From: a bacterium
Lineage (GTDB): Bacteria > Electryoneota > Electryoneia > Electryoneales > Electryoneaceae
DNA: 64,000 nucleotides
Direction of reading: 5' to 3'
Assembly: GCA_020444265.1 (NCBI GenBank)
Contig: JAHLLH010000002.1
Span: 423,033 to 487,032, forward strand
Positions 11,352-63,990 of this stretch are shown one piece after another (positions within the stretch are counted from its first letter, which is position 1; the number at the start of each line of letters is the position of its first letter). The position numbers and the translations under genes were made by a program. The notes under the pieces are model-generated. The model was given only the letters and a program-made list of their open reading frames with translations. It was not told where the DNA came from and made no database searches.

Positions 11352-12457
11352 ATGCCAACCACCTCCGTAAGCAAACGTTTCGCTACCACCTCCGCACCAT
11401 CACTCCGTATCCCGCTGAAATCGTAGGGAAGTTGGGCGAGGACGGTTTCAATCGCCTCCTCCCAGCGACCTGCAAAAAGGTCCTCATTGCTGATCAGGGC
11501 AAAGGGCATGGACTGCTCGGCGAAACCGATGATCGCGGGGGCTTCCATGAACTGGGTACGGTCGGTAAGGATCAGGCCGGAATGGTTGGCGGCGGTTTCG
11601 GCGACAGTGCTGTAGCCCGGTTTGCTCAGGACCACATCCATCGCGCGCACGAGATCATTGTAACGTAACCCGAGTGCCTTCAGATCCGCATCGGTCAGGT
11701 AAAGGTAGCCCTCACCCGGATCCTCGATGGGTGGGGTGACGACGAAACGATACCCGGTCATTTGGGAGGCACGTGCCAGCCGTGCCCCACGTAACCCCTC
11801 GCCACCGAAAGCCAGCAGCACAAGGGGACGGGTTTCGTCTTGCAGGCCGAGACGGGAGCGAGTCTCCTCGATGGATATCTGCGAAGCCCGAGCAACCAGC
11901 GGCACCTGCTCAACAACAGGGAAGCTTGCCATGCCGATATGCATCGGGAGACGGAAGAGTCGTGTCGAATGGGAGTAAGCCTCGCTGGCCAGCGAAACGA
12001 ATCGTTCCAGCTCAGGCGCATCCTTCGCGAGATCGCGCCAGATGTCATCCCAGGAAAAATTACTGCACCCATAGGCGGGTACACCGGCGATCTGACAGGC
12101 TTCAAATGCACGTGGGCTGATGTCGATCAGCGCTGCGTCGATCCCTGTCTGTTTCAGCCACACCGCTTCCTGCTCAACCAGCTTGTCGCCTTCGGGACCA
12201 TAGAAGAAAGTCAGCTTTTCAACGGATGCAGGGAGGTCATGACGGATCGAATCGAGGGCGACCAGTCCGATGTCGAGACGGATGGGAGCAAACGAGGAGG
12301 GATGCTGCTCGAGGGTCTCGAGCAGCATCTCCTCCCGGTACGGTGCACGTATGTGAATGCCGACATCGGGCCGTTGTTTCTGCACCTGACGGATGACCGC
12401 GAGGGTCCTTGTCAGGTGGCCGTAGCCATGCCCGGTGACGTAAAACGCAAGGTTCAT
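11336..12457 (-). CDS. GT-B glycosyltransferase-like protein resembling the arabinokinase N-terminal domain
   Basis: 373 residues starting MNLAFYVTGHGYGHLTRTLAV. This glycine/His-rich opening is shared by MurG-like GT-B enzymes and by the N-terminal domain of plant L-arabinokinase. The second half has LVLLAFGGEGLRGARLA and ADVVLSKPGYST-like features (here AMDVVLSKPGYSTVAE), the donor-binding region of such enzymes. The acceptor is unknown. Its ATG overlaps the upstream SppA-like gene's stop by four bases, so the two are coupled. The C terminus appears trimmed or replaced by a family 2 repeat. Confidence 0.8.
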   Translation of the reverse strand: MNLAFYVTGHGYGHLTRTLAVIRQVQKQRPDVGIHIRAPYREEMLLETLEQHPSSFAPIRLDIGLVALDSIRHDLPASVEKLTFFYGPEGDKLVEQEAVWLKQTGIDAALIDISPRAFEACQIAGVPAYGCSNFSWDDIWRDLAKDAPELERFVSLASEAYSHSTRLFRLPMHIGMASFPVVEQVPLVARASQISIEETRSRLGLQDETRPLVLLAFGGEGLRGARLARASQMTGYRFVVTPPIEDPGEGYLYLTDADLKALGLRYNDLVRAMDVVLSKPGYSTVAETAANHSGLILTDRTQFMEAPAIIGFAEQSMPFALISNEDLFAGRWEEAIETVLAQLPYDFSGIRSDGAEVVAKRLLTEVVGMSPRT

Positions 12458-14967
12458 TTCATCAACATCGCTTCTTCGTCAATCGGCAGCAACAGCATGG
12501 CGTTGTCATCCTGCATGCGTTCGATTGTCTCTTTCGCCTTCACCATCTCCTGGACCGTCATCAACTGGTCCCCGATGATCAAGGTACGAAGCTGACGTGA
12601 GAAGGGTTCCGCTGTCACACGCGGGTAGAGATCGGCTTCGATCACTTCGCTACGCTTGACGCCTACCCTTTCCTTTGCCACCTGGATGGCATCCCACAGG
12701 CCGCCATTCATGTCGACCAGACCCGCCTCGAGGGCATCTTTGCCGGACCAGACACGGCCCTGCGCGAGTTCTTCGACACGGTCCATCTCCATGCCACGAC
12801 CATCTGCGACAATGGATTTGAAGGTGGTGTAGGTCTGATCAACACCTTTCCGGATCACGTCGAGTTCATCGTCGGTCAAGACTTTGCCACGCTGCAGGTT
12901 AATATTCTTCCCGCGTGATACATCGTCGAACGTGATTCCCAACAGGGAGTCGAGACCCGGTTCGCTGGCAAGATGGGCGGTGATGACCCCGATCGACCCA
13001 GTGATGGTGTTGCGGTCGGCGATGATGGTATCCGCAAGCGCCGAGATGTAGTAGCCGCCGGAAGCCGCGACACCGGCCATGGAGACAATCACCGGGATGT
13101 GACGGACACCTTCGATAGAATGGTCGGTGGTGCGACGGATTTCGCGTGCAATGATGTCACTTGCCAGCGCGCTGCCGCCGGGGGAATCGACACGGAGGAC
13201 GATCGCCTTGACATGCTTGTCATTGCGTGCGGCCCTGATCGCCTGGGCAACCGTTTCCGATCCCATCTGCTCGTCTGTCAGGAAGCCGTCCCGGCTTTTC
13301 CCACGCTGAATCGCGCCGGTTGCATAGACAATCGCGATCTTCGGGGTGGTCATCGACTCCCAGGTCTCGTCGATCATCGGGTTCGACAAATAGTTCCACT
13401 CGGAGACCATTTGCGGCATCCAGGAGTCGCTGAAATCTTCTTTGACACGCTCTTTCAACTCATCCGGGTAGAGCAGGTCGTCCACCATGCCCATATCGAG
13501 CAGAATCGAGCCCTCATGCAGCGCATCGTTGACCCACGCTTCCGCCGTTGAACGGCTGATATTTCTGCCTTTGCTGACACCATCCAACCAGCTGTCCCAG
13601 CTGTCCTCGAGCAGGGCTTCGCGCGATTCACGGGACTCTTCGGAGAAGTTGGTCCGGGTAAAGGTTTCACCGGCGGACTTGTACTTGCCCGCGGCGACCA
13701 CCTGCATCTCCATGTCCAGCTTGTCGAGGGTGCCCTTGAGGAAGAGGCCGGTCATCCCCATGCCAGGCAGGAAGACGGCTCCTTCCGGGTAGAGGTAAAT
13801 TTTGTCGGCGACACTGGCGAGATAGTAGCTGCCCATGCCCAGGTCATAGCCGTAGACCACGATCTTCTTGCCCGCCGCCTGGAACCGTGTGAATGCGTCA
13901 CGCAGTTCATTCAGATCGGACATGGAGGCCTGGAAGTTGTCGATCTCGAGGCTGATACCCACGACACGGTCATCCTTGGTCATCATGTCGATACGTTCAA
14001 TGGTTTCCAGCAGGTTACGATTCCGTCCACCGAAAAAGCTGAAGCCCTTATCTTCTTCAACAAGCTGACCGCGCAGTTTGATGTTGACAATCCGCTGGGG
14101 GGTGAAGTTGTTGAACACGGAGTTGTAAGCATGGCTGCTCAAGCGCACATAGCCGACGCCGCCATCTTTCGCGGTTCCTGCGGGAGGATCGGACGGGAAG
14201 GCGTGCGAGTGGCCGAAGGTCAGCGACTCTACCGTGAAGTTCAGCCCGGCGAAAACCGTTTCGGTTTCCATATCGTACCCACCGCTGACACCGATGCCCG
14301 GCATCGCCTTCAGCTCGGCGAGGAAGCGGGGTTTGGCAAACTCGTAATCGTCCGTGGGTAGTGGTTTGTGCATGGTGCCATCAACAGAGAGAGTCAGCGG
14401 GCCACGCATGGGCCGGAACGCGAGGGCCATGTTGTAAGAAGCATCATGGTCAACCGTTCCGATACGACCACCAACAGCATCCTGGATGACAAGACCCAGG
14501 GAGAGGCATTCGGTCGGACGTGCGAGAAAACCGAAGTCCCAGGTGTTTTGACGATCCAGGTTGTAGAAGTAGTGGTAGTTGAACCCGAAGTAAAGACCCT
14601 GGGCTAATTCGCCGCCCAGCCCCCAGGTGTACCGACGTCCGCTGACCGGACCATTCATGTATTCGGTTGCGAAGCCGAGACCACCTGCGGCCAGGGCAAA
14701 GCCGAAATCATCATCGTAGATCAGGTCGTTCTGATCGAAGCTGGCCGGTTTGGTGAAGAGGAAACCTCCCTCATCGCCAATTCCGATGCCAGCCGGGTTA
14801 GACCAGACGGCGCCAATGGCGTCGGGTGTGGCTACCGAGCCATAGGGTGTGGCAATCAAGGCACGGCTGTTTGGTAGATTGGTGAAGCCAATTTGTGCCT
14901 GTGCAGGTGCGACAACCGCGACCAGCATCAAGCCCAACAGTCCAGCAATCGTAGCTTTGCGTAACAT
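12454..14967 (-). CDS. Outer-membrane beta-barrel fused to a tandem SppA-type (S49) protease
   Basis: 837 residues from an ATG with GGAGGGAG just upstream. A signal peptide ends at AQA. The first 290 or so residues look like an outer-membrane barrel related to FadL/PorV-type proteins (ATPDAIGAVWSNPAGIGIG, then many alternating strands). The rest is a 67K-type SppA: Lys430 in GKYKSAG corresponds to E. coli Lys209, and Ser636 in AASGGYY is the nucleophile. Standard SppA is a membrane-anchored signal-peptide peptidase; a barrel fusion would place it in the outer membrane. It is coupled to the GT-B gene downstream. Confidence 0.85.
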   Translation of the reverse strand: MLRKATIAGLLGLMLVAVVAPAQAQIGFTNLPNSRALIATPYGSVATPDAIGAVWSNPAGIGIGDEGGFLFTKPASFDQNDLIYDDDFGFALAAGGLGFATEYMNGPVSGRRYTWGLGGELAQGLYFGFNYHYFYNLDRQNTWDFGFLARPTECLSLGLVIQDAVGGRIGTVDHDASYNMALAFRPMRGPLTLSVDGTMHKPLPTDDYEFAKPRFLAELKAMPGIGVSGGYDMETETVFAGLNFTVESLTFGHSHAFPSDPPAGTAKDGGVGYVRLSSHAYNSVFNNFTPQRIVNIKLRGQLVEEDKGFSFFGGRNRNLLETIERIDMMTKDDRVVGISLEIDNFQASMSDLNELRDAFTRFQAAGKKIVVYGYDLGMGSYYLASVADKIYLYPEGAVFLPGMGMTGLFLKGTLDKLDMEMQVVAAGKYKSAGETFTRTNFSEESRESREALLEDSWDSWLDGVSKGRNISRSTAEAWVNDALHEGSILLDMGMVDDLLYPDELKERVKEDFSDSWMPQMVSEWNYLSNPMIDETWESMTTPKIAIVYATGAIQRGKSRDGFLTDEQMGSETVAQAIRAARNDKHVKAIVLRVDSPGGSALASDIIAREIRRTTDHSIEGVRHIPVIVSMAGVAASGGYYISALADTIIADRNTITGSIGVITAHLASEPGLDSLLGITFDDVSRGKNINLQRGKVLTDDELDVIRKGVDQTYTTFKSIVADGRGMEMDRVEELAQGRVWSGKDALEAGLVDMNGGLWDAIQVAKERVGVKRSEVIEADLYPRVTAEPFSRQLRTLIIGDQLMTVQEMVKAKETIERMQDDNAMLLLPIDEEAMLMK

Positions 14968-15076: not shown

Positions 15077-15979
15077 TTATGCCCGCTGATCCAGGTGAAG
15101 CAGCAGGGTTGTCAATGCGTCTTCTAAAGGATGGTCAGTGGAAAGCAGGTGGTGACGTACTTGGTGATGGGCGCAGCCCGTCTTGATTGTTTCCAGGTAC
15201 TCATCCATCTGCTCTCGATACGCCTCCTTCACTTGCCACGGGTTCACTGCAATGGATGTGCCAGTCTCGAGACCCTCGAAACGACTCTCGCGTGTAAACC
15301 CGAAATCGAGCTCGCGTGGATCGAGGATCTGGAAGACGAGGACATCCTGTCCCTGGTGACGGAAATGATGGAGGCCCTCGAGAATGTCGGAGGGGTTGTC
15401 CAGCAGGTCGGAAATAAGGATAACAAGGCCACGGCGGTTCAAACGTTCCGCGACAGCATGCAGCACATCGCCCAGTTTCGTTTCACCGCTCGGTTCGTGG
15501 CGTTCCAGCGCGGCCCAGAGCTCATTTCGCCAGGTCAACGCGGACCGTGGTGTGAGCAGCTCACGAAGCTCTGTGTCAAACAGGCCCAGGCCGACCGCAT
15601 CCCGCTGGTTCAGCAGCAGGTAAATCAGCGAAGCAGCGAGGGTGCGTCCGTACTCAGCCTTGCTAACCTCCCCCCCGGAGGCAAAGCCCATCGAGCCCGA
15701 AAGGTCGAGCAGGATGGTGGCGCGAAGGTTCGTTTCTTCCTGGTATTGCTTGATGTAATGGCGGTCAGTGCGGCCGAGAACTTTCCAATCGATGTGTTTA
15801 AGAGGATCACCTGGCTGGTACATCCGGTGTTCGGCGAATTCGACCGAAAAACCATGGTAGGGACTGCGGTGCAACCCGGTCATATACCCCTCGACGACCA
15901 CCTTCGCTCGGAGCGAAAGGGGTTGGAGACGATGGATCAGGGTCGAGGAGACCAGCTCTTTTTCGGATGCACGCAACAT
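15077..15979 (-). CDS. DUF58 protein with VWA-like fold
   Basis: 300 residues. The DUF58 core is clear: EFAEHRMYQPGDPLKHIDWKVLGRTD at about residues 47-72, followed by a VWA-like strand with a DLSGSMG metal-site motif near 93-99. DUF58 proteins act with MoxR ATPases, often as metal-dependent chaperones. The MoxR gene lies 1.5 kb upstream on the same strand, separated by the redoxin selenoprotein gene and repeats, so the usual operon is split here. The N terminus has no membrane segment. Confidence 0.88.
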   Translation of the reverse strand: MLRASEKELVSSTLIHRLQPLSLRAKVVVEGYMTGLHRSPYHGFSVEFAEHRMYQPGDPLKHIDWKVLGRTDRHYIKQYQEETNLRATILLDLSGSMGFASGGEVSKAEYGRTLAASLIYLLLNQRDAVGLGLFDTELRELLTPRSALTWRNELWAALERHEPSGETKLGDVLHAVAERLNRRGLVILISDLLDNPSDILEGLHHFRHQGQDVLVFQILDPRELDFGFTRESRFEGLETGTSIAVNPWQVKEAYREQMDEYLETIKTGCAHHQVRHHLLSTDHPLEDALTTLLLHLDQRA

Positions 15980-31236: not shown

Positions 31237-31701
31237 TCAGGACTTGTTCTCCTCGTCCATCGGTTCTTCTTTCATCATCTCGCCCTCCTCCTCGGGCATC
31301 TCGATTTCCATGAACTCCATCCCGCAGGCGCAGTGGGTCTTCTCGGCATCAGCAGGCAGCACCGTATGGCACTTCGGGCAGCCCTTCAGATGCTTCGCAC
31401 GCAACTCGGTGACCTGTTCCTTGGTCATTTCAACCACTGCCATCCCGCAGCCTTCCATCGGGCAATGGGCATTCATGTCCTCGGTGACAAAGACATGGTG
31501 ATGGTCGCAGGTGTAGAGCTTGTCCGCTGTGTAGACATAGCTCATGTCCTTGTCCATCTCCATCATGTGGTCATGGTTCATTTTGTCGCCAGAGTCCTGC
31601 ATGCCGCCCTCATCCTGGGCGAATGCGGCGGGGGTTGCGACAACAATCAGGGCAAAGGCCATCATCAGGCCGACGAAAACGCGCAATGCCTTACCGTGCA
31701 T
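31237..31701 (-). CDS. Secreted Met/His/Cys-rich protein with a heavy-metal-binding-domain-like motif
   Basis: 154 residues with a signal peptide ending AAFAQ, a strong GGAAGGAGG ribosome site, and a mature part rich in Met, His, Glu and Asp. The segment YTCDHHHVFVTEDMNAHCPMEGCGMAVVE mirrors the heavy-metal-binding domain (YTCPMHP...CPKCGM) of copper-efflux proteins. CPKCHTV and CACGMEF give two further Cys pairs. A periplasmic copper or zinc buffer is the likely role. It is next to the sigma-54/kinase island. Confidence 0.78.
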   Translation of the reverse strand: MHGKALRVFVGLMMAFALIVVATPAAFAQDEGGMQDSGDKMNHDHMMEMDKDMSYVYTADKLYTCDHHHVFVTEDMNAHCPMEGCGMAVVEMTKEQVTELRAKHLKGCPKCHTVLPADAEKTHCACGMEFMEIEMPEEEGEMMKEEPMDEENKS

Positions 31702-31920
31702 GGCTCCTCCTTCCAGCTCGTTGTGGATCGGGTAATGTTATGCACCGGGGCGAACAGCTTTTGCAGCGTCCTTCCCGGCAATTTCAGGTGTGGTCAGATC
31801 ATCGCGAGAATGTTTGTATCAACAAACAATACACTTCGATCCTCTGGTCAGCAACTCTCGATGGAAGGTTGGTGAAAATAGTGGTACAGCAGGAGAGTGT
31901 GACTGAGATGGGATAAAAGA

Positions 31921-31955
31921 AACAGCCGGACCTCAACTGAGGCCCGGCTGTTTTT
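31921..31955 (-). terminator. Terminator after the Asp/Gly-loop protein gene
   Basis: On the minus strand, AGCCGGGCCTCAGTTGAGGTCCGGCT followed by GTTTCTTTTAT: a strong stem with a T-rich tail, about 40 bases after the stop of the 31995 gene. The rest of the 31702-31994 gap shows nothing else clear. Confidence 0.75.
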
Positions 31956-32503: not shown

Positions 32504-32519
32504 TGCGAGAAGCGTGCCA
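32504..32519 (-). promoter_or_regulatory. Sigma-54 promoter for the Asp/Gly-loop protein gene
   Basis: On the minus strand: TGGCAC-GCTTC-TCGCA, a full match to the GG-N10-GC core and nearly the TGGCAC-N5-TTGCA consensus (one mismatch). It lies 66 bases upstream of the ATG at 32438, giving a leader of about 55 bases. Confidence 0.7.
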
Positions 32520-32629
32520 GTTTCTTCTGTCGCCCTCCAAAATCAACAGTAAATCACTGATATAGTGTGCTTTAAACGGAATGGTGCCAGGCTCAGGATC
32601 AGATTGGTTCCAAGGCAACAACTCTCTTT

Positions 32630-32645
32630 TCGTCAAGCTGGACGA
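32630..32645. promoter_or_regulatory. Candidate activator-binding palindrome between divergent sigma-54 promoters
   Basis: TCGTC-AAGCTG-GACGA lies about 110 bases upstream of the minus-strand promoter and 145 bases upstream of the plus-strand promoter, at enhancer distance for both. A further GACGAG half-site follows at 32663. Only position and symmetry support this. Confidence 0.35.
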
Positions 32646-32788
32646 GTCATTCGGCAAAATGGACGAGATGCCGGGGGAGGTAGCGGCCTACTTCGTCCGC
32701 GTATAAGGAAAAAGAAGGGATGGCTCCTTGAAGTATCTCTTTGTATAACAATTAGTAAGAGAAGGGTCAGGGTGGTTAGTGGGAAAAC

Positions 32789-32804
32789 TGGCACGGCACT
32801 GGCA
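32789..32804 (+). promoter_or_regulatory. Sigma-54 promoter for the secreted CarboxypepD_reg-like protein gene
   Basis: TGGCAC-GGCAC-TGGCA: a perfect -24 element and a -12 element with one mismatch to TTGCA. It is 58 bases before the ATG at 32863, with AAGGAG at the right place downstream. It is divergent from the promoter at 32504. Confidence 0.7.
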
Positions 32805-33261: not shown

Positions 33262-33273
33262 TCCTGAAGTGTT

Positions 33274-33306
33274 CACCGGACCCGATCCAATTGGACGGGT
33301 CCGGTG
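33274..33306 (+). terminator. Long hairpin after the CarboxypepD_reg-like gene
   Basis: An 11-bp stem (CACCGGACCCG and its complement) encloses a palindromic TCCAATTGGA, 12 bases after the stop codon. There is no T-run, so it may stabilise the mRNA end or act as an attenuator. A second long stem (GACCCTTCAA with TTGAAGGGTC) spans about 33320-33378 in the leader of the kinase gene. Confidence 0.5.
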
Positions 33307-33437
33307 AGTGGTGCAGCGCATGACCCTTCAAGTGTCGGCAAGCCTGGGGAGGAGTGCCGGTTTGAAGGGTCGGCGCTTGCCTGTTCATTGGCAACGGCCC
33401 CACCTTTGAGGAACGAACTTCCTTTGCAGGAGATGGT

Positions 33438-35153
33438 TTGAACGCCGGTGCCAAATCGACCTTGTTTCGCGGCCAATCCTTTCTGCCCGGACTGCTGCTG
33501 ATTCTCTTCCTGGTGGGTGGAGCATCTGCGGTCTGGGATTTCTTCCGTGTGGATGCCATCACTCGGAACCTCGCCCTGCGCGAGGTGAGCGGCTTGGTGA
33601 AGCAGGTAGAGGGCGACATTCGGGCGATCGCACGCGAGAATGAGTACAACCAGATCAATCATGACGAAGCCCTGGTTGCCCGGGCACGTCTGATCGCCTG
33701 TATGACGACTGAAAAACGGTTCTCTGACAACGAGTTGGAACAACTGGCGGACGATGCGAACCTCTCCTCGATAGATCTGATCGATGGTCGTGGTGCGTGG
33801 GTTGCTGGAACGGACCGGTTAACCGGGCTTGGTCCGGACGAGTTCATTGACATCCTGAGTGAGCTGACCCTGACAGGCCGTGAGGAGATGGTCCTGGGGG
33901 TGTTTGACCCCTGGACCGAGCAGGACCGGATGATGTTCAACATGGTCCTCATCGGGCACTATGTCGCTGCTATTGCACGGCCCGGTGGCGGTGCGGTGGT
34001 GGTCAGCACGGACTACTGGCCCGAGACACAAAGCCTGGGCAGTATTCTCCACCAGCTCAACCAGCACCCAGAGGTGCTGTTCGCGATGCTCACATCGAGT
34101 GAGTCCATTCTCGCAGCGACAAAGGGTTTGCCGGAGTGGGTCGGTGGTCCGGAGGATAGCTTCTACGATTGGGAAATACCGGTTGATACGGTCGCTGCGC
34201 GGTTTACACGGACTCCCGATGGGGAGCCGGTTTTTGAGGCGGTGACGGACCTGACCGGTCTGGACGATGTGACCCTGCGCATGATGCTGCATGCCGACGA
34301 GCTCCGCAGCATCCGGTCACGCAGCTTGGTGGCGCTGAGCATTCGGACGGTTCTCTTCATGATGCTTGGCGGGCTGATTCTCGCCTTCCTGGTCGCCAAG
34401 CAGAACCAGCGTCTGCTGGCCGAGGAGCGGGACAGGATTCGGCGCGAAGTCGAGCGCCTTGAAGCAGATCGCAGAGCGAAAGAACGTCTCGAGGCGATGG
34501 GCAAACTGGCGGGAGGCGTGGCGCACGAGATCCGCAATCCGCTGAATACGGTGGAGATGGTGGCGCAACGTCTCGAACTGGAATTCGAGCCGACGTCGGA
34601 CCGTGATGAGTACCTCTCAATGGTCACGACGATGCGCACGGAGGCAAAACGGATCGGGAAAATCGTGCAGGACTTTCTCGCCTTCGCACGGCCTCCCGCG
34701 ACCAACCGTCAAAAGGGTTCGTTGACCGATGTGGTGGAACGGAACATTGCCCTCTTCCGTCCAATGGCCGAGGCTCAGGGGGTCGATATAACCCTCGAGA
34801 AGGGTAACGTCAAAGAGTTTGCATTCGATCACGAGCAGGTGGGGCAAGCCCTGCAAAACCTGCTGCGAAACGCGCTGGAAGCGGTGCCTGAATCCGGGGG
34901 GGAGATCCGGGTCCAACTGGAGCAAGAAGGTTCGTATGCACGGATGGAAGTTGCGGACAATGGGCCGGGGATTCCTCTTGAGGAACGAGTTCGGGTCTTT
35001 CACCTCTACCACACAACCAAGGCGGAAGGGACCGGAGTAGGGCTGTCATTGGTCCACCGGATCGCCGATGAACATGGGGGACGTGTCGAGATTGACGATA
35101 CCCCCGGCGGAGGGGCAACCCTGCGTATCTACCTGAAACGGGAGTTTGCATGA
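33438..35153 (+). CDS. Sensor histidine kinase (NtrB/ZraS-like)
   Basis: 571 residues from a TTG with AGGAG seven bases upstream. An N-terminal membrane helix (about 15-32), a periplasmic sensor domain of about 250 residues and a second helix (about 293-313) precede HisKA with LAGGVAHEIRNPLNTV and a HATPase (NLLRNALEAVPE, DNGPGIPLEE, GTGVGLSLVHRIADEHGG). The ATG of the regulator overlaps its stop, so the pair is a two-component system. The layout matches ZraS/AtoS-type kinases paired with sigma-54 activators. Confidence 0.93.
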   Translation: MNAGAKSTLFRGQSFLPGLLLILFLVGGASAVWDFFRVDAITRNLALREVSGLVKQVEGDIRAIARENEYNQINHDEALVARARLIACMTTEKRFSDNELEQLADDANLSSIDLIDGRGAWVAGTDRLTGLGPDEFIDILSELTLTGREEMVLGVFDPWTEQDRMMFNMVLIGHYVAAIARPGGGAVVVSTDYWPETQSLGSILHQLNQHPEVLFAMLTSSESILAATKGLPEWVGGPEDSFYDWEIPVDTVAARFTRTPDGEPVFEAVTDLTGLDDVTLRMMLHADELRSIRSRSLVALSIRTVLFMMLGGLILAFLVAKQNQRLLAEERDRIRREVERLEADRRAKERLEAMGKLAGGVAHEIRNPLNTVEMVAQRLELEFEPTSDRDEYLSMVTTMRTEAKRIGKIVQDFLAFARPPATNRQKGSLTDVVERNIALFRPMAEAQGVDITLEKGNVKEFAFDHEQVGQALQNLLRNALEAVPESGGEIRVQLEQEGSYARMEVADNGPGIPLEERVRVFHLYHTTKAEGTGVGLSLVHRIADEHGGRVEIDDTPGGGATLRIYLKREFA

Positions 35154-36529
35154 GTGCCCACCGGGTACTGATCGCGGATGACGAAGCGCCGCAGCGTTCC
35201 ACTCTCGCGGGTTACCTCAAGAAGCGTGGCTTTGAGGTGCTCGAGGCGGGTGATGGGGTCGCTGCGCTGAATACTCTCGGCAGGGAGGCCATAGACCTGT
35301 TGCTGACCGATTTGCGTATGCCGGGGCTGGATGGTCTCGAGCTACTCAAAAAGGCGCGCGAGCTGAACCCGTTGGTCGAAGTGATTGTGATGACTGCGTT
35401 CGGGACCATCGAATCAGCAGTCGAGGCGATGCAGGCGGGAGCGCATACGTATATCCAGAAGCCGGTCAGCCTCGCTGAATTGCAGATCCAGGTGGACCGC
35501 GCGCTGGAACGGAAACAGCTGCACGAGGAAAACCGTGAGCTGCGCGCACGGATGGGCGACGACGCGTCCGGTGACCTGATTGCCACGTCGCAAGAGATGC
35601 GCGAAGTCTTCGGCCTGGTGGCACGAGCCGCTCCCTCGCGGGCATCGGTGCTGATCCTCGGTGAATCGGGCACGGGCAAGGAGATGGTGGCGCGGGCGAT
35701 CCATACCACATCACCACGTGCGGAGAAACCCTTCGTACCGGTGAACATCGCTGCGATCCCGGAGACCCTGGTCGAGAGCGAACTTTTCGGCCATGAAAAA
35801 GGATCGTTCACCGGCGCTGTTGGCAAACACACAGGTGTTTTTGAACGGGCCAGCGGGGGCACTCTCTTTATTGATGAAGTCGGGGATATGCCCTTGTCGG
35901 CGCAAGTGAAACTGCTTCGCGTGTTGCAGGAAGGAACGATTGAACGAGTTGGTGGCAGCGGTTCGACGGCGGTGGATGTACGGATTGTCGCGGCGACCAA
36001 TGCTGACCTTGAGGAACGGGTTCGCAGTGGCGAGTTCCGTGAGGACCTCTTCTATCGTCTGAATGTCGTTCGCATTGAACTGCCGCCCCTGCGTGCGCGG
36101 AAAGCGGATATCCCGCTGCTGGTCGAGCACTTTATTAAGAAATACGCCTCTTTGAATGGCAAGGAGGTTGAAGGAGTGGATCGCGCGGCGATGGACCTGC
36201 TGATGAAGCATCATTGGCCCGGCAATGTGCGTGAGCTTGAAAACGCGATTGAATCGGCGGTGGTGCTGAGCCGTGGCTCGCTGGTCGGGCCGCGAGACTT
36301 GTCCCAGCATCTTCGCGGTGGCTTGTCATCTGCATCGGGCAATTCGCCATGGCAGGATGAAAGCCTGCCATTGCCGGAACGGGTGGATGCCTTTGAACGG
36401 GATGTCGTGCAGCGCGTGCTGGATGAGGTCGGTGGCAACCAGAGCGAAGCCGCCCGCCGTCTCGGCATGTCGGAAAAGGCGATCCGGTACCGTCTCAGCC
36501 GCTGGAACGGCGGAGAGGAAGAAGCATGA
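35150..36529 (+). CDS. Sigma-54-dependent response regulator (NtrC family)
   Basis: 459 residues: receiver (Asp54 in LLTDLRMPG), AAA+ with GESGTGKEMVARAI (Walker A), GSFTGAVGKHTGVFERASGG (GAFTGA loop, here GSFTGA), FIDEVGDMPLSAQ (Walker B), and a C-terminal Fis-type helix-turn-helix (GGNQSEAARRLGMSEKAIRYRLSRW). It should activate sigma-54 promoters; the nearest candidates are at 32504 and 32789. The next gene's ATG overlaps its stop. Confidence 0.94.
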   Translation: MSAHRVLIADDEAPQRSTLAGYLKKRGFEVLEAGDGVAALNTLGREAIDLLLTDLRMPGLDGLELLKKARELNPLVEVIVMTAFGTIESAVEAMQAGAHTYIQKPVSLAELQIQVDRALERKQLHEENRELRARMGDDASGDLIATSQEMREVFGLVARAAPSRASVLILGESGTGKEMVARAIHTTSPRAEKPFVPVNIAAIPETLVESELFGHEKGSFTGAVGKHTGVFERASGGTLFIDEVGDMPLSAQVKLLRVLQEGTIERVGGSGSTAVDVRIVAATNADLEERVRSGEFREDLFYRLNVVRIELPPLRARKADIPLLVEHFIKKYASLNGKEVEGVDRAAMDLLMKHHWPGNVRELENAIESAVVLSRGSLVGPRDLSQHLRGGLSSASGNSPWQDESLPLPERVDAFERDVVQRVLDEVGGNQSEAARRLGMSEKAIRYRLSRWNGGEEEA

Positions 36530-37049: not shown

Positions 37050-38108
37050 ATGAAACGTCTCCTCCCCTCTATAATCGTCGGCCTGCTCGCCTTTGGGCAG
37101 GCAACTGCCGAACTGCCTCCGCTCTGGTATGAGTTCACTTTCAATGGCGGCAGCACGAGCAATCTCTTTGCCGACAGCCTCGATGTCGATGACAGCTATG
37201 GCGGCATCGGGGTCGTGCTCGAACAGATCATCTCCCCGGCCTGGGTCCTCTGGTACCAGGGCTATGGAGAGACTTTCGCACAGACCTCCGACCTCGGAAG
37301 CCTCGACCATACCCTCGCGCTGGAAACGAGTACGTTTGTCGGGCAACGTGGTGAACTCTATGCGACCGCGCTGGCCAATGCGGTCGGGTATGCCAGCGAC
37401 TACGAGCTCTACAACCGGAATGCTGTCGGGATGACCGGCGGGTACCGTCACCTGGCCGACGAAGCACTGCGTCTCAGGGTAAACGGTCAGTTCAATACGA
37501 TGAGCTACCCCAACGCTGACACCCTCGATGTGGACTACCGCGAAGGAAGTCTCTCGTTCGGTGCCAATGTTGCGCTGCGGATTCCAGTCTCCCTCGATGT
37601 TGAGCCGGGTATCCAATGGCGAGTCTACGACAGCCTGGACGATCCCACCTCGACCCGTTACCTCTGGCTCTCGCTGCGGGCTTCCACACCGTTGACCCCG
37701 AAGACCGGGTTAGTAGCGCGTCTATTGCTGCGTGACCAACTCGACACCGAGGCCACCCAGCTTGTCGCGCTTGCACAGGGCGGATTGGATGCTGGGGACA
37801 TGCTGTGGGATGGCTGGCAGGGTGGTGTGACCCTGAATCGGATGGAGGGTCCGTGGTGGTTCAGCAGCGGCCTCGACTTCGGCCACAGCGCCTACGCGCA
37901 GAGCGTTCTCTATTCGGGTCAGCCAGCACGGACCGATGACCTGGTGCGCGGCACGGTCAAAGTGCAACGTGTGCTGAATCCTGTCCCGAAACGTCACCGA
38001 ATGACCGTCGTGGCGAGCGTCAGCTGGACGCAAAACAGCTCAACCATCGGTTACTACACCTATGATGGGTTTGCGACACGGCTGGCATTGCGCATCTCGG
38101 CAGAGTAG
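37050..38108 (+). CDS. Predicted outer-membrane beta-barrel protein
   Basis: 352 residues with a signal peptide ending QATAE. The body alternates hydrophobic residues in strands with many Tyr and Trp at strand ends (WVLWYQGYGETFAQ, RLRVNGQFNTMSYP, SSTIGYYTYDGFATRLALRIS), typical of outer-membrane barrels of about 14-16 strands; the end is not an aromatic residue. No named family recognised. It follows the calcium-loop protein by five bases and is probably the last gene of the two-component operon. Confidence 0.75.
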   Translation: MKRLLPSIIVGLLAFGQATAELPPLWYEFTFNGGSTSNLFADSLDVDDSYGGIGVVLEQIISPAWVLWYQGYGETFAQTSDLGSLDHTLALETSTFVGQRGELYATALANAVGYASDYELYNRNAVGMTGGYRHLADEALRLRVNGQFNTMSYPNADTLDVDYREGSLSFGANVALRIPVSLDVEPGIQWRVYDSLDDPTSTRYLWLSLRASTPLTPKTGLVARLLLRDQLDTEATQLVALAQGGLDAGDMLWDGWQGGVTLNRMEGPWWFSSGLDFGHSAYAQSVLYSGQPARTDDLVRGTVKVQRVLNPVPKRHRMTVVASVSWTQNSSTIGYYTYDGFATRLALRISAE

Positions 38109-48637: not shown

Positions 48638-51583
48638 ATGAACTTGAAGAACATTACTATAAAAGCGAAGATCATTGGCTTGATGGTGCTGATGTCTTTC
48701 GTACCCCTGCTGGCAATTTTGGGGATCACCTTCTACTCGAGCAGGGATGTTCAGACAGTTGTCAGAGATGGCTTGGATTCCCTTGGTAACGCTAACCTGA
48801 CCCAGATTGCGCTCGATATCTACCACATGTGCGAAGTATCGCACGAGCTTGTCATGCAGAAGCTGGACGAGGGAATTGAAATCGCGAATTATCTGATGGA
48901 AGACAGTCCCATCAGAGAGTCGAGCAGTATGGTTTCCTGGACCGCAGTGAACCAGTATACGAATGCGGAGAAAAAGGTTACCCTGCCTCTGATGACCATA
49001 GGGAACCAAGCTATCAACAAGAATTTTTCCGCGTCCGTAAAGACCCCATTTGTTGATGATGTCGCAAAACTGAACGGTAGCACCTGTACCATTTTCCAAC
49101 GGATCAACGAGCGCGGCGATATGCTTCGTGTGGCGACCAATGTGCTCAAGTTAGACGGGTCGCGCGCGGTTGGCACGTATATCCCAGCTGTTAATCCGGA
49201 TGGAACACCCAACCCGGTTATCTCAACGGTCATGAAGGGTCAGACCTACAGGGGACGGGCGTTTGTTGTCAACGACTGGTACATGACATCATACGAACCG
49301 CTGCGTGATTCGTTCGGTCGGATCATCGGTCTTGTTTATGTTGGTGTCAAGCCAGAATCGGTTCAATCTCTGCGTCACGCTGTCATGGACACCAAAGTCG
49401 GCAAAACAGGCTATGTCTATGTCCTTGGTGGTAAAGGCAGTCAGAAGGGACACTACATCATTTCCTACCAGGGCAAGCGTGATGGAGAGGATATCTTTGG
49501 TGCCAAGGATAGTGATGGCAATCTGTTTATCCAGGATATCGTTGAGCGTGGTGTCCAGTTAAATGATATGGAAAGCTTTGTTGCCTACTACCCCTGGAAA
49601 AACAAAGGTGAATCTGAAGCACGGATGAAGAAGGCTGCGATCACCTATTTCGAACCGTGGGACTGGGTGATTGGTGCCTCGACCTATGAGGATGAGTATC
49701 GTGTCGCCCACAAGCGTGCCGAATCATCCTTCACCAAGCTTCTCACGACAGTCGCGATTATCGGGCTTGTCATCCTGATTCTTGCTTCAGCAACAGCCTA
49801 TTACTTCGGCAATGGGGTCGCCAAACCAATTCTCGAACTGACCCGGATTTCGAAGAAGATTGCTCTCGGTGATCTTTCTGAGGCGCCCAAGGTCCAGCGA
49901 AATGACGAGTTGGGTGAACTGGCGAACGCCAACCGTGACATGCTGACTTCGCTCAACGACAAGGCCGATCTGGTCAGCAAAGTTTCCCATGGTGATTTGT
50001 CGGTTGAAATCAAGCTGGCCAGCGAGAGTGATGTTCTCGGCCAGTCGCTTAACCGGATGAAAGACACCCTAAACCTGGTCATCTCGCGCCTTGATACCTT
50101 GGCCAAAGAGCATCAGGAAGGGGATGTTGAGGCACGTTGCGATGTCAACGGTGTCGAAGGCGGATATGCTGAGTTGCTCGAAAACGTCAATGGCGCGTTC
50201 GAAGCCATTGCGAACCCGGTGGTCGAATCGATTGGCATCCTGAACGAGTATGCCGAAGGCAAGGTCGAGAAGGAGATGCGTGATCTGCCGGGCAAGCAGA
50301 TGATGCTGACCGATGGCCTGAACCGTATGCGTTCCTCCATTCGTGCGGTCATCAAAGAGACGATTGATCTGGCACGATCCGCAAGGGAGGGCAACCTCAA
50401 GGACCGTGGCGACACAACGGTTGTCGAAGGGGCGTATCGCGAGATCGTCGAGGGCATCAACGGAACGCTTGACTCGATCCTCGAACCGATCAACGAAGCT
50501 GCTGCGGTTCTGGAACGGATGGCGGAAGGTGATTTGTCGCCGCGTGTGACGGGTGATTACAAGGGTGACCACGCTCTCATCAAGAACCACCTGAACCAGA
50601 CCCTGGAAGAGTTGAATGAGCTTGTCGGCCAGACCCAACGTGCGGTGCAACAGGTCGCAGAAGGATCCAACCAGGTCAGCCAGTCGAGCCAGTCCCTGTC
50701 ACAGGGCGCGACCGAACAGGCGAGTGCCCTCGAGGAGATTTCTTCCTCGATGACCGAAATTGGTTCCCAGACCCGTCTCAACGCTGACAATGCCGCCCAG
50801 GCGAACAAGCTGTCGATCACATCCCGTGAGTCGGCTCACACCGGCAGCGGCCAGATGGACCGGATGGTTCGTGCGATGACGGACATCAGTGATTCGTCGG
50901 TTGAAGTGCAGAAAATCATCAAGGCGATTGACGAGATCGCCTTCCAGACCAACCTGCTGGCGTTGAACGCGGCGGTTGAAGCGGCACGTGCCGGTGCGCA
51001 CGGCAAGGGCTTCGCGGTGGTCGCGGAAGAGGTTCGAAACCTGGCGCAGCGTAGTGCAAAGGCGGCGCAGGAAACAACCGCGCTGATCGAAGGGTCGGTA
51101 GAGAAGACCAAGGCGGGTGAAAAGATCGCCTCGGAAACCGCCGAATCGCTGAGCAGCATTGTCGAGAGCATCACGAAGGTGACCGACCTGATTGGTGAGA
51201 TCGACAGTGCCAGCCGCGAACAGGCGCAGGGTATCGACCAGGTCGCGGAAGCGCTTGGACAGGTGGACCAGGTCACCCAGTCGAACACCGCGAGTGCGGA
51301 GGAGTCTGCTGCAACCGCCGAGGAACTCTCCGGCCAGGCAAGCCAGCTGCAGGTGATGCTCTCCCGCTTCATCCTCAGCGAAGGAGCCCGTCAACTGATG
51401 AGCGCCCCGGCTGCCCCGGCATCACGGAGACACCAGGTAAGGGGTACCTCCGATGATGGATTCGAGGAGAGCTATCAATCCGAGAAACCAGCAGCACCGA
51501 AGGCAGGCAAAGTGGTCAAGCCGAATGATGTGATCTCGCTGGACGACACGGATTTCGGTGGCTTCCGATTTAACCGTGATTAA
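48638..51583 (+). CDS. Methyl-accepting chemotaxis protein with Cache sensor domain
   Basis: 981 residues from ATG (GGAG upstream). First membrane helix about 13-33, a periplasmic Cache_3-Cache_2 region ([25 protein letters not shown]; then [11 protein letters not shown] and [14 protein letters not shown]) of about 330 residues, second helix about 369-391, HAMP, several HAMP-like linker blocks, then the signalling domain with the tip [18 protein letters not shown]. The tail ends [12 protein letters not shown]. It should sense a ligand outside the inner membrane and steer CheA. The upstream porin shares the transcript. Confidence 0.93.
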
Positions 51584-51584
51584 C

Positions 51585-51643
51585 AGTCGATGAAGCATAA
51601 TCCGCTCTCTCAAGGGTCGAGAGTGCTTCATCGACTTTTTTTG
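51585..51643 (+). terminator. Terminator after the first chemoreceptor
   Basis: A long stem (GTCGATGAAGCA with TGCTTCATCGAC) encloses a second one (CTCTC with GAGAG) and is followed by TTTTTTT. This is one of the strongest terminators in the window. Confidence 0.9.
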
Positions 51644-51732
51644 CGTAAAAACCGTAAAGTTCTAATAGTTATACCTAACTCCGTGAAACAGTGATCCTGA
51701 TGGAGACGCTGTGTAAACAGAAGGGAAGTAGA

Positions 51733-52962
51733 ATGCGTAGCTCAAGAACAAAGCTGGTTGTCGCGCTGATGCTGTTGACTATGGTTAGCGTATCAAGGGG
51801 GGAAGTTCGAATTTCGGATCAGGTCACGCTTGACGGAAATGTTCGCTACCGCTACGAGCTGAACGACAAAAGCTTCAATCCCGATGCAGGGGCCTATGAC
51901 TATGCTTCGCTGCGGTCGTTCCTTGGCGTAAATATTGTTCCGTCCGAAGGTCTGCTTGTCCGCTTCAAGTTCGGTGAAGCTCGGTACCTGGGGACAACGG
52001 CCTCTAACAGCGCGTCCACAGCACTTGTTGAGCTCCACGAAGGCTACGTCGACTTCAACTCTTCCTACATCCTTCCCATGAACATCCGTATTGGTCGATT
52101 TGAAAACTGGTATGGCTCAAAACGACTGATGGGAACAGGTGGGTGGAATGTGTACGGACCCCGCACCTATGATGGCATCCGGTTCCGCTGGGCACAGGGC
52201 GGCACACGGGTTGACCTGTTCCACTTCACCACCGTGGAACGGTCCGCTGCAGTAGCGCCTTCGAGTGGCGCCAGTTTCGACGAGCAGGATCGCAGGTTGA
52301 TGGGTGTGGCGGTGAAAACGGGTCCCTTCCAGCCGCTGCTGATGGTGGATTGGGATTCGGCCTTTGACCACGGCCAGGACAACGCAGATCTGATCGTGAC
52401 TCCAGCTGTGAATTACATGGGCAAGCTGTCGCAGTTCAAAGTTACGGTGGATGCCGCCTACCAGTTTGGTAATAAAGGCGGGAAAGACCTTTCCTCGCAC
52501 CTGCTGGTCGGAAAAGTGAAGTACGGCATCGACAAGTCGATTCTGTCGGGTATCTCAGCAGGAGTTGACTACACCTCGGGGAATGGTGCAACAACCCCAG
52601 CTACCGAGGATCATGCTTTCTACGCCCCCTACATGTCGCGTCACCTCTATCGTGGTTTCATGGATTACTTCAAGGATGTGAACAACGGTTTACTGGATGC
52701 GAATGGTTCGCTTTATCTGAAGCCGGGAAAGGGAGCGACTGTCTCGGTTGATCTTCATCATTTTCGCTATGTCGAGCCTGCGGTAACAGCTTCGGGAGAG
52801 TATTCCGGGCTTGGCAATGAGATCGATACACGGCTTGTAATGAAGCTGATGCCGAAGTTGAGCCTGGATGCGGCGTACTGCCTGTTCATGCCAAGTGAAG
52901 ATTACCAGGCTTCATCTGGAACGACAACGTTCCTCTATTTGGCGTTGACCGCCAAATTCTAA
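51733..52962 (+). CDS. Outer-membrane porin, alginate-export family-like
   Basis: 409 residues from ATG 51733 (AGAAGGGAAG upstream; an earlier in-frame start has weaker support). Signal peptide ends VSRGE. The mature start VTLDGNVRYRYELNDKSF and the block MNIRIGRFENWYGSKRLMG fit the alginate-export (AlgE-like) porin family. It ends in ALTAKF with a C-terminal Phe. It is followed by a terminator and then the second chemoreceptor gene, so this is the second porin/receptor pair. Confidence 0.82.
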   Translation: MRSSRTKLVVALMLLTMVSVSRGEVRISDQVTLDGNVRYRYELNDKSFNPDAGAYDYASLRSFLGVNIVPSEGLLVRFKFGEARYLGTTASNSASTALVELHEGYVDFNSSYILPMNIRIGRFENWYGSKRLMGTGGWNVYGPRTYDGIRFRWAQGGTRVDLFHFTTVERSAAVAPSSGASFDEQDRRLMGVAVKTGPFQPLLMVDWDSAFDHGQDNADLIVTPAVNYMGKLSQFKVTVDAAYQFGNKGGKDLSSHLLVGKVKYGIDKSILSGISAGVDYTSGNGATTPATEDHAFYAPYMSRHLYRGFMDYFKDVNNGLLDANGSLYLKPGKGATVSVDLHHFRYVEPAVTASGEYSGLGNEIDTRLVMKLMPKLSLDAAYCLFMPSEDYQASSGTTTFLYLALTAKF

Positions 52963-52971
52963 GGGTGTAAA

Positions 52972-53023
52972 CGCTTCCGGATGTGCCGGGGGGCGTCACA
53001 TCCGGAAGCGAGCACGGTTTTTT
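52972..53023 (+). terminator. Terminator after the second porin
   Basis: CGCTTCCGGATGTG and its exact complement form a 14-bp stem with a GC-rich loop, followed after a few bases by TTTTTT. Confidence 0.85.
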
Positions 53024-53104
53024 AGCCACTGTCTGGAAGCAGACATCTGCTAGAGCGTGTTTCCATTTCGCAGGTTTGCAGTTCGAGTAGAAAGGACGTT
53101 CAAG

Positions 53105-55882
53105 ATGGGTATTCGAAACCGTTTCCTTATTCCGCTTATCGTTGTCTTCGTTGCAGTAGGTGTGTCGGTCTTTTTTATCATGCGGAGCACCAGCCTAAGA
53201 AGTTTGGAAAAGGACCTGGATCAACAGTTTGGATTGAACCAGAAAGAAGTAAACAGCGGTATTGCTCAGATTTCGCATCAGGCTTTGGAGATCGCCAGCC
53301 TCTTCTCAAGATTGCCGGAAGTAGTCACCAGTTATGAAACGATTGAGAGTGCAAATATCGACGACCCTTATGATGCAACTGTCCAGGAACAACGCGAGAA
53401 ATTGCGTGAGTTCATGGCAAGCTACAAAAAGGGGTACAAAGAAAACCTTGATGGGGCACAGCTCAAACTGCACTACCACCTGATGAATGGTCGCAGCTTC
53501 CTCCGTGTCTGGCGAGAACACCAGACAACGAAGGGGGAAGATCTTTCGGATGATTTGCGATCCTTCCGGAAAACGGTTCAAACAATCAATAGTGGTTCCC
53601 ATAAACCGATTTCTGGGATTGAAATCGGAAGGGGCGGATTCGCTCTTCGTGGCCTCGCCCCAGTGACCACGAACAGCGGAAAACACCTCGGTTCCGTAGA
53701 AATGTTGTTCAGTTTCGATCAGTTGACTTCGACCGTAAAAACATCCGACAGACAAGAGTTTGCGGTCCTGATGAACAAGAGTGAGCTTGAGATTGCCCGC
53801 TCTCTGCAAGACACCTCTAAGTATCCGATCCTCGGTGATGACTACGTGCTGATCACAGCATCAAACAGTGATCTCTCCAGATCCCTGCTTACCTCTAAGA
53901 TGCTGCAGGCTGGCAGAGAGGGGATTTCACCTGTATTCAAGAAAAAGAACTACTGGGTCAAGACCTTCCCGATCCGCGATTTTGAAGGAACACAGGTTGG
54001 TGTGTTCGCAGACATTCGCAATGTCGGGATTCAGCTTGCGGACTTGCATCGGTCCACAACCTCCACTCTTCTCATTCTTCTTTTTGCACTGGGTGTCGTT
54101 GCAGCAGTCGTTGTCCCGATCGTGACCCGCATTACAAATCGCATCAAGCGGGTTCAGGATGCAGCGAATCAAATTGCGCTGGGCAATGTCAATATTGAGA
54201 TCGGCGACACTGGAACAGATGAGATTGGCAAGCTAGCCGATGCATTTCGCACAATGGTGGAAGCTCTTCGATCAAAATCCGAGGCGGTAGTTGCCTTTTC
54301 GAACGGCGATCTGACTGCAGATGTGAACGTTGCATCCGATGAGGATGACCTTGGCCATGCACTTGTTCAGATGCGTTCCATCATGCAGAAGCTTGTAAAG
54401 AACCTCGAATCGCTGGCGTTGGAGCATCAGCAAGGTGATGTTGAGGCCCGGGCTGAAACCGCTGGTTTATCTGGCGCCTACCTTGAACTCGTGGAAAACG
54501 TCAATGGCGCGTTCGAAGCCATTGCGAATCCGGTGGTCGAGGCGATTGGCATCATGAACGAGTACGCTGAAGGGAAGGTCGACAAGGTTTTGCGTGACCT
54601 TCCCGGCAAGCAGATTATCCTGACCAAAGGCTTGAACAACATTCGTGGGTCCATTCGTGCGGTCATCAAGGAGACGATTGATCTGGCACGATCCGCAAGG
54701 GAGGGCAACCTCAAGGACCGTGGCGACACAACGGTTGTCGAAGGGGCGTATCGCGAGATCGTCGAGGGCATCAACGGAACGCTTGACTCGATCCTCGAAC
54801 CGATCAACGAAGCTGCTGCGGTTCTGGAACGGATGGCGGAAGGTGATTTGTCGCCGCGTGTGACGGGTGATTACAAGGGTGACCACGCTCTCATCAAGAA
54901 CCACCTGAACCAGACCCTGGAAGAGTTGAATGAGCTTGTCGGCCAGACCCAACGTGCGGTGCAACAGGTCGCAGAAGGATCCAACCAGGTCAGCCAGTCG
55001 AGCCAGTCCCTGTCACAGGGCGCGACCGAACAGGCGAGTGCCCTCGAGGAGATTTCTTCCTCGATGACCGAGATCGGTTCCCAGACACGTCTCAACGCAG
55101 ACAATGCCGCGCAGGCGAACAAGCTTTCCATCACCTCCAAAGAGTCGGCCCACACCGGCTCCGGACAGATGGACCGGATGGTCAGCGCGATGAGCGAGAT
55201 CAGCGAATCGTCCAGTGAAGTCCAGAAGATCATCAAGGCGATTGACGAGATCGCGTTCCAGACCAACCTGCTGGCGTTGAATGCAGCGGTTGAAGCGGCG
55301 CGTGCCGGAGCGCACGGCAAGGGCTTCGCAGTGGTCGCGGAAGAGGTTCGTAACCTGGCGCAGCGTAGTGCGAAGGCCGCCCAGGAAACAACCGCCCTGA
55401 TCGAAGGATCAGTGGAGAAGACCAAGGCTGGTGAAAAGATCGCCTCCGAAACGGCGGAATCGCTGAGCAGCATTGTCGAGAGCATCACAAAGGTGACCGA
55501 CCTGATTGGTGAGATTGACAGTGCCAGCCGTGAACAGGCACAGGGTATTGACCAGGTCGCCGAAGCACTTGGCCAGGTTGACCAGGTAACCCAGTCCAAC
55601 ACCGCGAGTGCGGAAGAGTCAGCAGCGACTGCTGAAGAGTTGTCCGGCCAGGCCAGTCAGCTCCAGGTGATGCTCTCCCGCTTCATCCTGAGCGAGGGTG
55701 CGCGTCAGCTGATGAGTGCTCCCTCCACACCGCCGTCACGGAAGCACCAGGTAAGGGGTGCCTCCGATGATGGATTCGAGGATAGCTATCAATCGGAGAA
55801 ACCAGCAGCACCGAAGGCAGGCAAAGTGGTCAAGCCGAATGATGTGATTTCGCTTGACGACACCGATTTCGGCGGCTTCTGA
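53105..55882 (+). CDS. Methyl-accepting chemotaxis protein with dCache-type sensor
   Basis: 925 residues from ATG 53105 (AAAGGACG upstream). First helix about 8-27; a periplasmic region of about 290 residues with [17 protein letters not shown], the hallmark of the dCache_3 double Cache domain; second helix about 318-341; HAMP and linker; signalling domain nearly identical to the one at 48638. The C terminus is DTDFGGF, fitting the x-[aromatic]-x-x-[aromatic] CheR/CheB tether. A 401-bp tract (54671-55071) is identical in DNA to the other receptor. Confidence 0.93.
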
Positions 55883-55902
55883 GTCCAGCAAGATGTCAAC
55901 CC

Positions 55903-55937
55903 AACCTCCCGGTGAAGATCACCGGGAGGTTTTTCTT
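55903..55937 (+). terminator. Terminator after the second chemoreceptor
   Basis: AACCTCCCGGTGAAGATCACCGGGAGGTTTTTCTTT, a stem of about 13 base pairs with a T-rich tail, 20 bases after the stop. Confidence 0.9.
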
Positions 55938-56024
55938 TCTATCGGGTGACAGCTCGGGCTCGACAGGCAGGATGGGCAGGAAGTACCTTGCTCGCAGACC
56001 ACGACCACCTCTCGGGGGAATCCA

Positions 56025-58621: not shown

Positions 58622-58838
58622 ACGGTTCTCACCATAACCACGTTTTATCAACTCCAGTCGAGCCACACCTTTTGCGAGAAGGATAACAGGTTCGTAACTT
58701 TCTTCACAAGGTTTCGGCGAGCTAATCGTCCGTGTGGATGTTTCCGTTTCCGGGGGGCACTGGCTGGGATAGCTGGTGGGAGGAGGGGAACCACAGGGGA
58801 AGCTCGGAGAAATCAGTCCCCCATGTCGAGGATTGGAC

Positions 58839-63526: not shown

Positions 63527-63990
63527 ACCAGCACATTCTCGCCATTGATGACGAGCCGCATATGCTCGTTTTGCTCGAACGGATTGTTCGGGAGAAGACC
63601 CCGTACGAGATTACCACCACCAGCAATGCCCTCGAAGTGCCTAAACTACTCGATGAAGAGCAGTACGACATGATCGTCACTGACCTGAAGATGCCGAAGC
63701 TGGGAGGGCTGGATATCCTGCGGCGGATTCAGGAAGATGGACGACGTGAACTGGTGGTCCTGATTACCGCGTTCGGTACCATTGACACCGCACGCGAGGC
63801 ACGTGCCCTCGGTGTTTTCGATTACATTACCAAACCCTTCCGCAAGGAAGAGATCCTTTCCTGTTTGCATCGTGGCATGGCGATGCAGCGAGCACGCAGT
63901 TGCTTGAGCAACTGGGAAGGGCTGATGGAAATGGATGAGGAGAAAGCGGTCGATGAGTTTCGGAAATTGTGGCGGGAGTCGAACAGCTGA
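63523..63990 (+). CDS. Response regulator receiver protein with short C-terminal tail
   Basis: 155 residues: receiver with Asp9/Asp10, phospho-Asp54 in IVTDLKMPKL, Thr in LITAFGT and Lys in YITKPFRKEE, then about 35 residues including a helical EEKAVDEFRKLW end. No DNA-binding domain. It is the cognate regulator of the overlapping kinase, or a phosphorelay shuttle. It ends ten bases before the window edge. Confidence 0.92.
   Translation: MNQHILAIDDEPHMLVLLERIVREKTPYEITTTSNALEVPKLLDEEQYDMIVTDLKMPKLGGLDILRRIQEDGRRELVVLITAFGTIDTAREARALGVFDYITKPFRKEEILSCLHRGMAMQRARSCLSNWEGLMEMDEEKAVDEFRKLWRESNS

Follow-up and report, generated by a model that had tools for sequence, protein, structure and literature searches.

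Two sigma-54 promoters that point away from each other lie on either side of a tandem enhancer in the window, which is the whole stretch of 64,000 nucleotides that was analysed. Each of them is located upstream of a gene for a small secreted protein, and the genes of a sensor kinase and an NtrC-family regulator are encoded nearby. Sequence comparison indicates that this divergent arrangement is real and belongs to a cell-envelope signalling circuit that has apparently not been described. A dedicated periplasm-sensing two-component circuit, in which the regulator binds to CGAC dyads and activates sigma-54-dependent transcription of secreted and outer-membrane proteins, is in our judgement the likely explanation. 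What began as two promoters in one uncultured genome would in this way become a regulon whose enhancer code can be read and used to predict its unlinked targets. The circuit would tie unnamed protein families (SprA/SprB, the barrel, DUF2202 and DUF4405) to one signalling system and offer a direct route to the functions of these proteins, and it may correspond to Zra in bacteria that are less well studied. SprA, SprB and Cpd are names coined in this analysis; the features of the locus are listed in Table 1.

Table 1. Genes, promoters, enhancer dyads and RNA elements of the divergent locus (window coordinates)
Feature	Position	Strand	Remarks
Terminator-like intrinsic hairpin 3' of SprA	31920..31953	-	15 pairs, T-rich tail
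SprA, small secreted protein, 147 aa	31995..32438	-	Three DGDG-type loops, tail NRPGGGRR; AAGGAG before ATG at 32438
SprA sigma-54 (-24/-12) promoter, TGGCACGCTTCTCGCA	32504..32519	-	81 bp 5' of SprA ATG
Enhancer dyad 1, TCGTC-AAGCTG-GACGA	32630..32645		Kept as TCGWC-N6-GWCGA in relatives
Enhancer dyad 2, TCGGC-AAAATG-GACGA	32651..32666		21 bp from dyad 1
Cpd sigma-54 promoter, TGGCACGGCACTGGCA	32789..32804	+	74 bp 5' of Cpd ATG; TG at -12 atypical
Cpd, small secreted protein, 132 aa	32863..33261	+	One CarboxypepD_reg domain (PF13620, E=4e-12), basic Gly/Arg tail
Cpd-kinase intergenic stretch	33262..33437	+	Two strong hairpins without T run (folding z=-5.9)
Sensor histidine kinase, 571 aa	33438..35153	+	TM1, ~260-aa periplasmic domain, TM2, HisKA, HATPase
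NtrC-family response regulator, 459 aa	35150..36529	+	Receiver, sigma-54 AAA+ domain (GSFTGA loop), Fis-type HTH
SprB, secreted protein, 172 aa	36526..37044	+	DGDG motif as in SprA, Gly-rich tail
Outer-membrane beta-barrel-like protein, 352 aa	37050..38108	+	All-beta model, low confidence; forms a pair with SprB in each of the three genera

Promoters, enhancer and genes of the window

An earlier note on this DNA had described TGGCAC-N5-TCGCA on the minus strand and TGGCAC-N5-TGGCA on the plus strand, facing apart at a distance of 270 bases and driving two small secreted proteins. Both sites are present (TGGCAC-GCTTC-TCGCA and TGGCAC-GGCAC-TGGCA), their inner edges are 269 bp apart, and they are placed before SprA and Cpd, respectively. 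Promoters were scored with a hand-made weighting of the sigma-54 consensus. Counting of the pattern TGGCACN5TNGCA gave three matches in the window versus 0.18 expected, and 18 matches in the 4.33-Mb genome versus 19 for the reversed control pattern. Since the genome count is not above the control, the motif by itself is only weakly informative; the unusual part is the occurrence of two outward-facing sigma-54 sites within 300 bp, before two genes encoding signal peptides. RpoN is encoded in one copy in the genome (PF04552, E=3e-51).

The TCGTC-N6-GACGA palindrome that had been reported between the promoters is indeed located there (32630-32645), but it is only half of a tandem enhancer, the second and imperfect dyad of which had been missed. 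The complete element (32630-32666) consists of two CGWC-N6-GWCG dyads, scores 15 of 16, and none of 400 shuffles was as good. Genome-wide, the single-dyad pattern showed little or no enrichment over the control, thus a single palindrome is uninformative. The enhancer pattern was derived from the first four sites, and only the sites found later are independent of it. No description of a tandem CGWC-N6-GWCG enhancer or of the SprA motif was found in open-access full text; subscription journals may hold one.

Domain matches at 33438-35153 and 35150-36529 confirmed that the nearby operon encodes a kinase with a periplasmic domain and an NtrC-family activator. PF00072, PF00158, PF25601 and PF02954 all exceed their cut-offs in the regulator, and with these domains, RpoN and a conserved enhancer upstream of a -24/-12 promoter the locus has the sequence features of an NtrC-family sigma-54 two-component system. 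There is a weak indication that the periplasmic domain of the kinase is Cache-like: Foldseek with a poor model of this domain (pLDDT 64) returned weak matches to the sensor domains of DctB and of chemoreceptors (E ~1e-3), and sCache_3_2 was detected in one related kinase with a score below the cut-off. The protein encoded at 37050-38108 is, judging from its model, probably an outer-membrane barrel protein, and its orthologues were found by BLASTP with E about 1e-45. The structure models of both sensor and barrel are too poor for a functional call.

SprA and SprB have a FVDENGDGFNDLAPDHDGDGIPN-type motif in common and matched no Pfam or NCBIfam family. Calcium loops of the thrombospondin type 3 and dockerin-like type have the form D-x-[DN]-G-D-G-x-x-D. 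Loops of this form are carried by SprA and SprB, a likeness at the level of the motif, whereas neither protein matches a Pfam family. In the small products of the window's family, glycine, arginine and lysine make up 45-90% of the last 20 residues compared to a median of 20% for the ORFs of the window, and the Gly/Arg-rich tails may serve surface or cell-wall binding. Concerning the RNA elements, the number of terminator-like sites is not above that of shuffles, the hairpin 3' of SprA being the strongest one; the hairpins between Cpd and the kinase gene are a possible attenuator or processing site.

Several further observations were made. A secreted protein encoded next to SprA (31237-31701, minus strand) contains many Cys, His and Met residues (TCDHHHVF, CPMEGCGM, CPKCH, HCACGM); it matches no Pfam family and is possibly a metal-binding protein. 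Large genes of the sensor-like and response-regulator type follow one another at 48638-63990 of the window. A third, perfect sigma-54-like site, TGGCACATCCATTGCA, is located at 15248-15263 (minus strand) with a 14/16 tandem dyad upstream, ~280 bp before the gene of an 837-aa exported protein (12454-14967, minus strand). Since this site lies inside an overlapping ORF it may be a chance match; it may also be a further target of the regulon. Another sigma-54-like site, TGGCACGCCCCTTGCA, is found directly 5' of a dnaK-like gene (L051 near 1501; G000 C9:489233-489248, minus strand).

Recurrence in relatives and outside the phylum

The earlier note had named comparison of the intergenic region with relatives as the check on its promoters, and a lack of conservation as a result that would speak against them. 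Both the promoter and the tandem enhancer were found again in two further genera of the family, and outside the phylum as well. Among 60 relatives, the kinase sensor was found only in G003 and G004, which represent these two genera, plus a weak match in G046. Identity to G003/G004 is 34-38% for the sensor and 64-68% for the regulator. A profile search with the kinase sensor in GTDB contigs and in the available genomes of the window's phylum returned only the two relatives already known; its distribution is therefore narrow, and the wider spread of the module was traced through SprA and not through the sensor.

The gene order in G003 is kinase, regulator, an intergenic region with TGGCATACACATTGCG, SprB and barrel, and in G004 the SprB-barrel pair is located on a separate contig and preceded by CGGCACTCCGTTTGCA. 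In both genera a tandem site and a sigma-54 promoter are present in front of this pair (loci L031 and L065), the dyads upstream being TCGAC-N6-GTCGT-N6-TCGAC-N6-GTCGA in G003 and TCGAC-N6-GTCGA-N6-CCGAC-N6-GACGA in G004. SprB orthologues with sigma-54 promoter and tandem enhancer were detected in G003, G004 and G361, and both elements also precede the Cpd orthologues of G003 and G004.

Two sets of genomes were searched for SprA-like proteins: 11 of the 386 genomes spread from that of the window gave a match, and so did 44 of the 385 spread from G381. Several families outside the phylum combine a kinase and a regulator with one or two SprA-like proteins and a barrel-like one, often with DUF4405 or DUF2202 proteins as well. 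The small secreted proteins of these loci show DGDGxND/DGDGIPN calcium-loop-like motifs, and the SprA relatives outside the phylum have a sigma-54 promoter upstream, too. G062 mirrors the layout of the window, with SprA divergent from kinase and regulator and a second DGDG protein encoded behind the regulator; G361 and G365 mirror the layout of G003. Barrels of the window's family and of other families show at best marginal BLASTP similarity, thus the partnership with the barrel across families is positional.

Within ~450 bp upstream, 15 of 16 genes had a best tandem score of 14-16 (out of 16), and none of 400 shuffles was as good; the exception is G062 (score 13, P=0.29). No enhancer was found in G182 and G402. 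Both elements are present in 10 of the 14 SprA-like genes with an intergenic upstream region versus 6 of 52 other genes of the same loci (p=2.5e-5), a comparison in which some loci overlap those of the 16-gene shuffle test. Five of the six control genes with both elements belong to the same gene set, as barrel, DUF2202 or DUF4405 genes, and are therefore more likely targets than noise. The first dyad is centred 89-160 bp from the -24 box, and in the G381 group 105-108 bp separate enhancer and promoter in nearly all SprA genes. Site and promoter at the right distance were found in 351 kb of background loci eight times with a score of at least 13, twice with at least 14 (one of these being the window's own 15248 site) and never with at least 15, and 29 such combinations were found in the module loci (23 loci, 230 kb).

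Two side observations concern single lineages. Tandem site and sigma-54 promoter also precede a DUF2202-like gene and the gene of a small exported protein (L222 4725 (+), L223 1018 (+)), and the regulon is probably larger in this lineage. In the single-contig genome G381, one SprA gene is present in near-identical copies at three places (L179, L225); one copy is located near a putative transposase gene, and spread of the copies by a mobile element is possible.

The module regulators probably form one clade, with moderate support. The 13 module regulators lie on one side of a single branch that separates them from 17 other NtrC-type regulators (bootstrap 82, SH-aLRT 22), and the best tree and 84% of the bootstrap trees gave a single origin. 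With regulator L004 of G046 added, the branch values were 95/96. At the G046 locus, the kinase and regulator genes are accompanied by a lipoprotein gene that is preceded by a sigma-54-like site, and by the gene of a small secreted protein in which a DKNGNGIDD motif is present; because this gene set is partly similar, G046 may represent an offshoot of the module. Grouping of the G361 regulator with that of G004 hints at a transfer between lineages.

Predicted unlinked targets found through the enhancer

Family genomes were searched with the dyad and then with the tandem pattern, and the resulting loci were afterwards checked for promoters. In GC-rich genomes the tandem pattern with two mismatches is mostly coding noise, and matches were kept only with a correctly placed promoter. 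Four new loci were obtained, all with a correctly directed sigma-54 promoter and an exported product. The secreted protein encoded at G003 C126 has 721 aa, four CarboxypepD_reg domains and a Por secretion tail; the enhancer of this locus is ~400 bp from the promoter, farther than in the other loci. Cpd orthologues are encoded at G003 C255 and at the second site of G004 C596, so that three of the four loci encode Cpd relatives, and the fourth (G000 C13), found in the window's own genome, encodes a 280-aa lipoprotein. The predicted regulon exceeds SprA and Cpd and includes SprB, the barrel and the unlinked lipoprotein.

Other matches were rejected. The tandem match in G004 C179 lies inside a gene, and a promoter-like site inside or beside the match does not fit; the match at G000 C6:29828 is without a nearby promoter, and the one in G003 C49 has the promoter-like site on the wrong side. 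Single dyads in G003 C89, C101, C249 and C270 are located within genes or are without a suitable promoter.

Proposed circuit, known systems and alternative readings

Promoters, tandem enhancer, their recurrence and the partnership of the genes can be read directly in the DNA, and from them we infer phosphorylation, binding, looping, read-through, signal and physiological role as follows. The extracytoplasmic domain of the kinase would sense a periplasmic condition, and the kinase would phosphorylate the NtrC-family regulator. The regulator would then oligomerise on the two dyads, which lie ~two helical turns apart and precede each -24 box by ~140-150 bp, and DNA looping would open the sigma-54 promoters in both directions. 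One promoter would express SprA; the other one would express Cpd and then, probably by read-through, kinase, regulator, SprB and barrel, resulting in positive autoregulation. Read-through from Cpd to the kinase would have to cross the two strong hairpins, a point against it, but these lack a T run. The unlinked lipoprotein gene G000 C13 would be part of the same regulon. The products are predicted to be secreted, lipid-anchored or located in the outer membrane, the small ones having DxDGDGxxD calcium-loop-like motifs and/or Gly/Arg-rich tails, and their role may be envelope remodelling or protection, perhaps under metal stress.

In the E. coli zra layout, divergent sigma-54 promoters are combined with a membrane kinase with a periplasmic domain, an NtrC-family regulator and a small periplasmic product. 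The locus in the window resembles it in all of these points and in its probable autoregulation. A diverged but ordinary Zra (or AtoSC) system, sensing zinc or envelope stress and having a ZraP-like product, would account for this layout, for ZraS/ZraR and AtoS/AtoC being among the best models, and for ZraR being the third best solved structure for the regulator. However, the kinase reaches only 170.1 bits against a ZraS cut-off of 479 and 192.5 against an AtoS cut-off of 646, and the regulator 410.9 against 760 for ZraR and 493.9 against 714 for AtoC. SprA and SprB match no Pfam or NCBIfam family, and Cpd is a CarboxypepD_reg protein and not of the ZraP type. In the window Cpd lies between promoter and kinase, and the system has a SprB-barrel operon, unlinked targets and the tandem enhancer. 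We consider this reading very unlikely: since both equivalog scores fail and the products are unrelated, the window system is, as judged from its sequence, not a member of ZraPSR, the zinc/envelope-stress two-component system of E. coli (PMC10848872). The suggestion of the earlier note that a Zra-like layout with unrelated secreted products may mark a distinct system is supported.

AtoS and AtoC are the best-scoring equivalog models for kinase and regulator; however, both matches stay below the cut-off, that of AtoS is confined to the kinase core (residues 337-568), and the targets in the window are secreted proteins and not genes of fatty-acid catabolism. AtoC-like activators are the commonest class of sigma-54 activators across phyla (PMC3162934), and the window regulator belongs to this class. 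In QseEF(G)/GlrKR, a kinase and a sigma-54 regulator likewise control envelope genes at sigma-54 promoters via upstream sites (PMC6075780). The window regulator scores 355 versus a GlrR cut-off of 763, and no GlmY or QseG-like element was seen.

That the sigma-54-like and palindromic strings are functionless and arose by chance is highly improbable; the genome does contain the promoter pattern no more often than the reversed control pattern, yet both elements and their spacing are conserved across genera and outside the phylum, which already contradicts chance. The promoters could also be real but driven by another sigma-54 activator, the adjacent kinase-regulator pair being a coincidental neighbour. 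The genome has at least 27 genes of the sigma-54 activator type, and neighbourhood alone is no proof of regulation. However, this enhancer occurs together with this regulator clade outside the phylum, too, and it accompanies the unlinked targets in the same genomes, and SprA-like genes without the site are usually located directly behind the regulator gene. This makes another activator unlikely, and the comparative evidence points to control by the adjacent kinase and sigma-54 activator, as had been proposed earlier.

The circuit could function as described and still be a regulon for a surface structure (adhesion, matrix, biofilm) and not for stress, its products being displayed surface proteins. 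CarboxypepD_reg domains, as in the four-domain version of G003 with its Por secretion tail, DGDG loops and Gly/Arg tails also occur in surface proteins. Sigma-54 has a broad connection with the exterior of the cell (PMC3162934), and the window system fits this theme. Metal-transport genes next to the module in other genomes weakly point away from a surface structure, which we nevertheless regard as a real possibility, somewhat short of an even chance. For the periplasm-sensing circuit itself, a more specific role can be proposed tentatively, and we are rather doubtful about it: a sigma-54 two-component system, present in more than one phylum, that responds to metal or redox damage of the envelope with a new calcium-loop-like, Gly/Arg-tailed periplasmic family and an outer-membrane barrel, and that is an analogue of Zra with an independent make-up and its own tandem enhancer code.

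Metals as the signal of this circuit are weakly favoured, as a lead only, by the Cys/His/Met-rich protein at 31237-31701 and by the neighbours of the module elsewhere. MntP is encoded divergently from SprA in G082, and VIT1 is found in three loci. The module of G381 is accompanied by FeoA, ArsP and an ArsR-type regulator, and that of G230 by a CusB-like protein with a heavy-metal-binding domain and an outer-membrane efflux protein.
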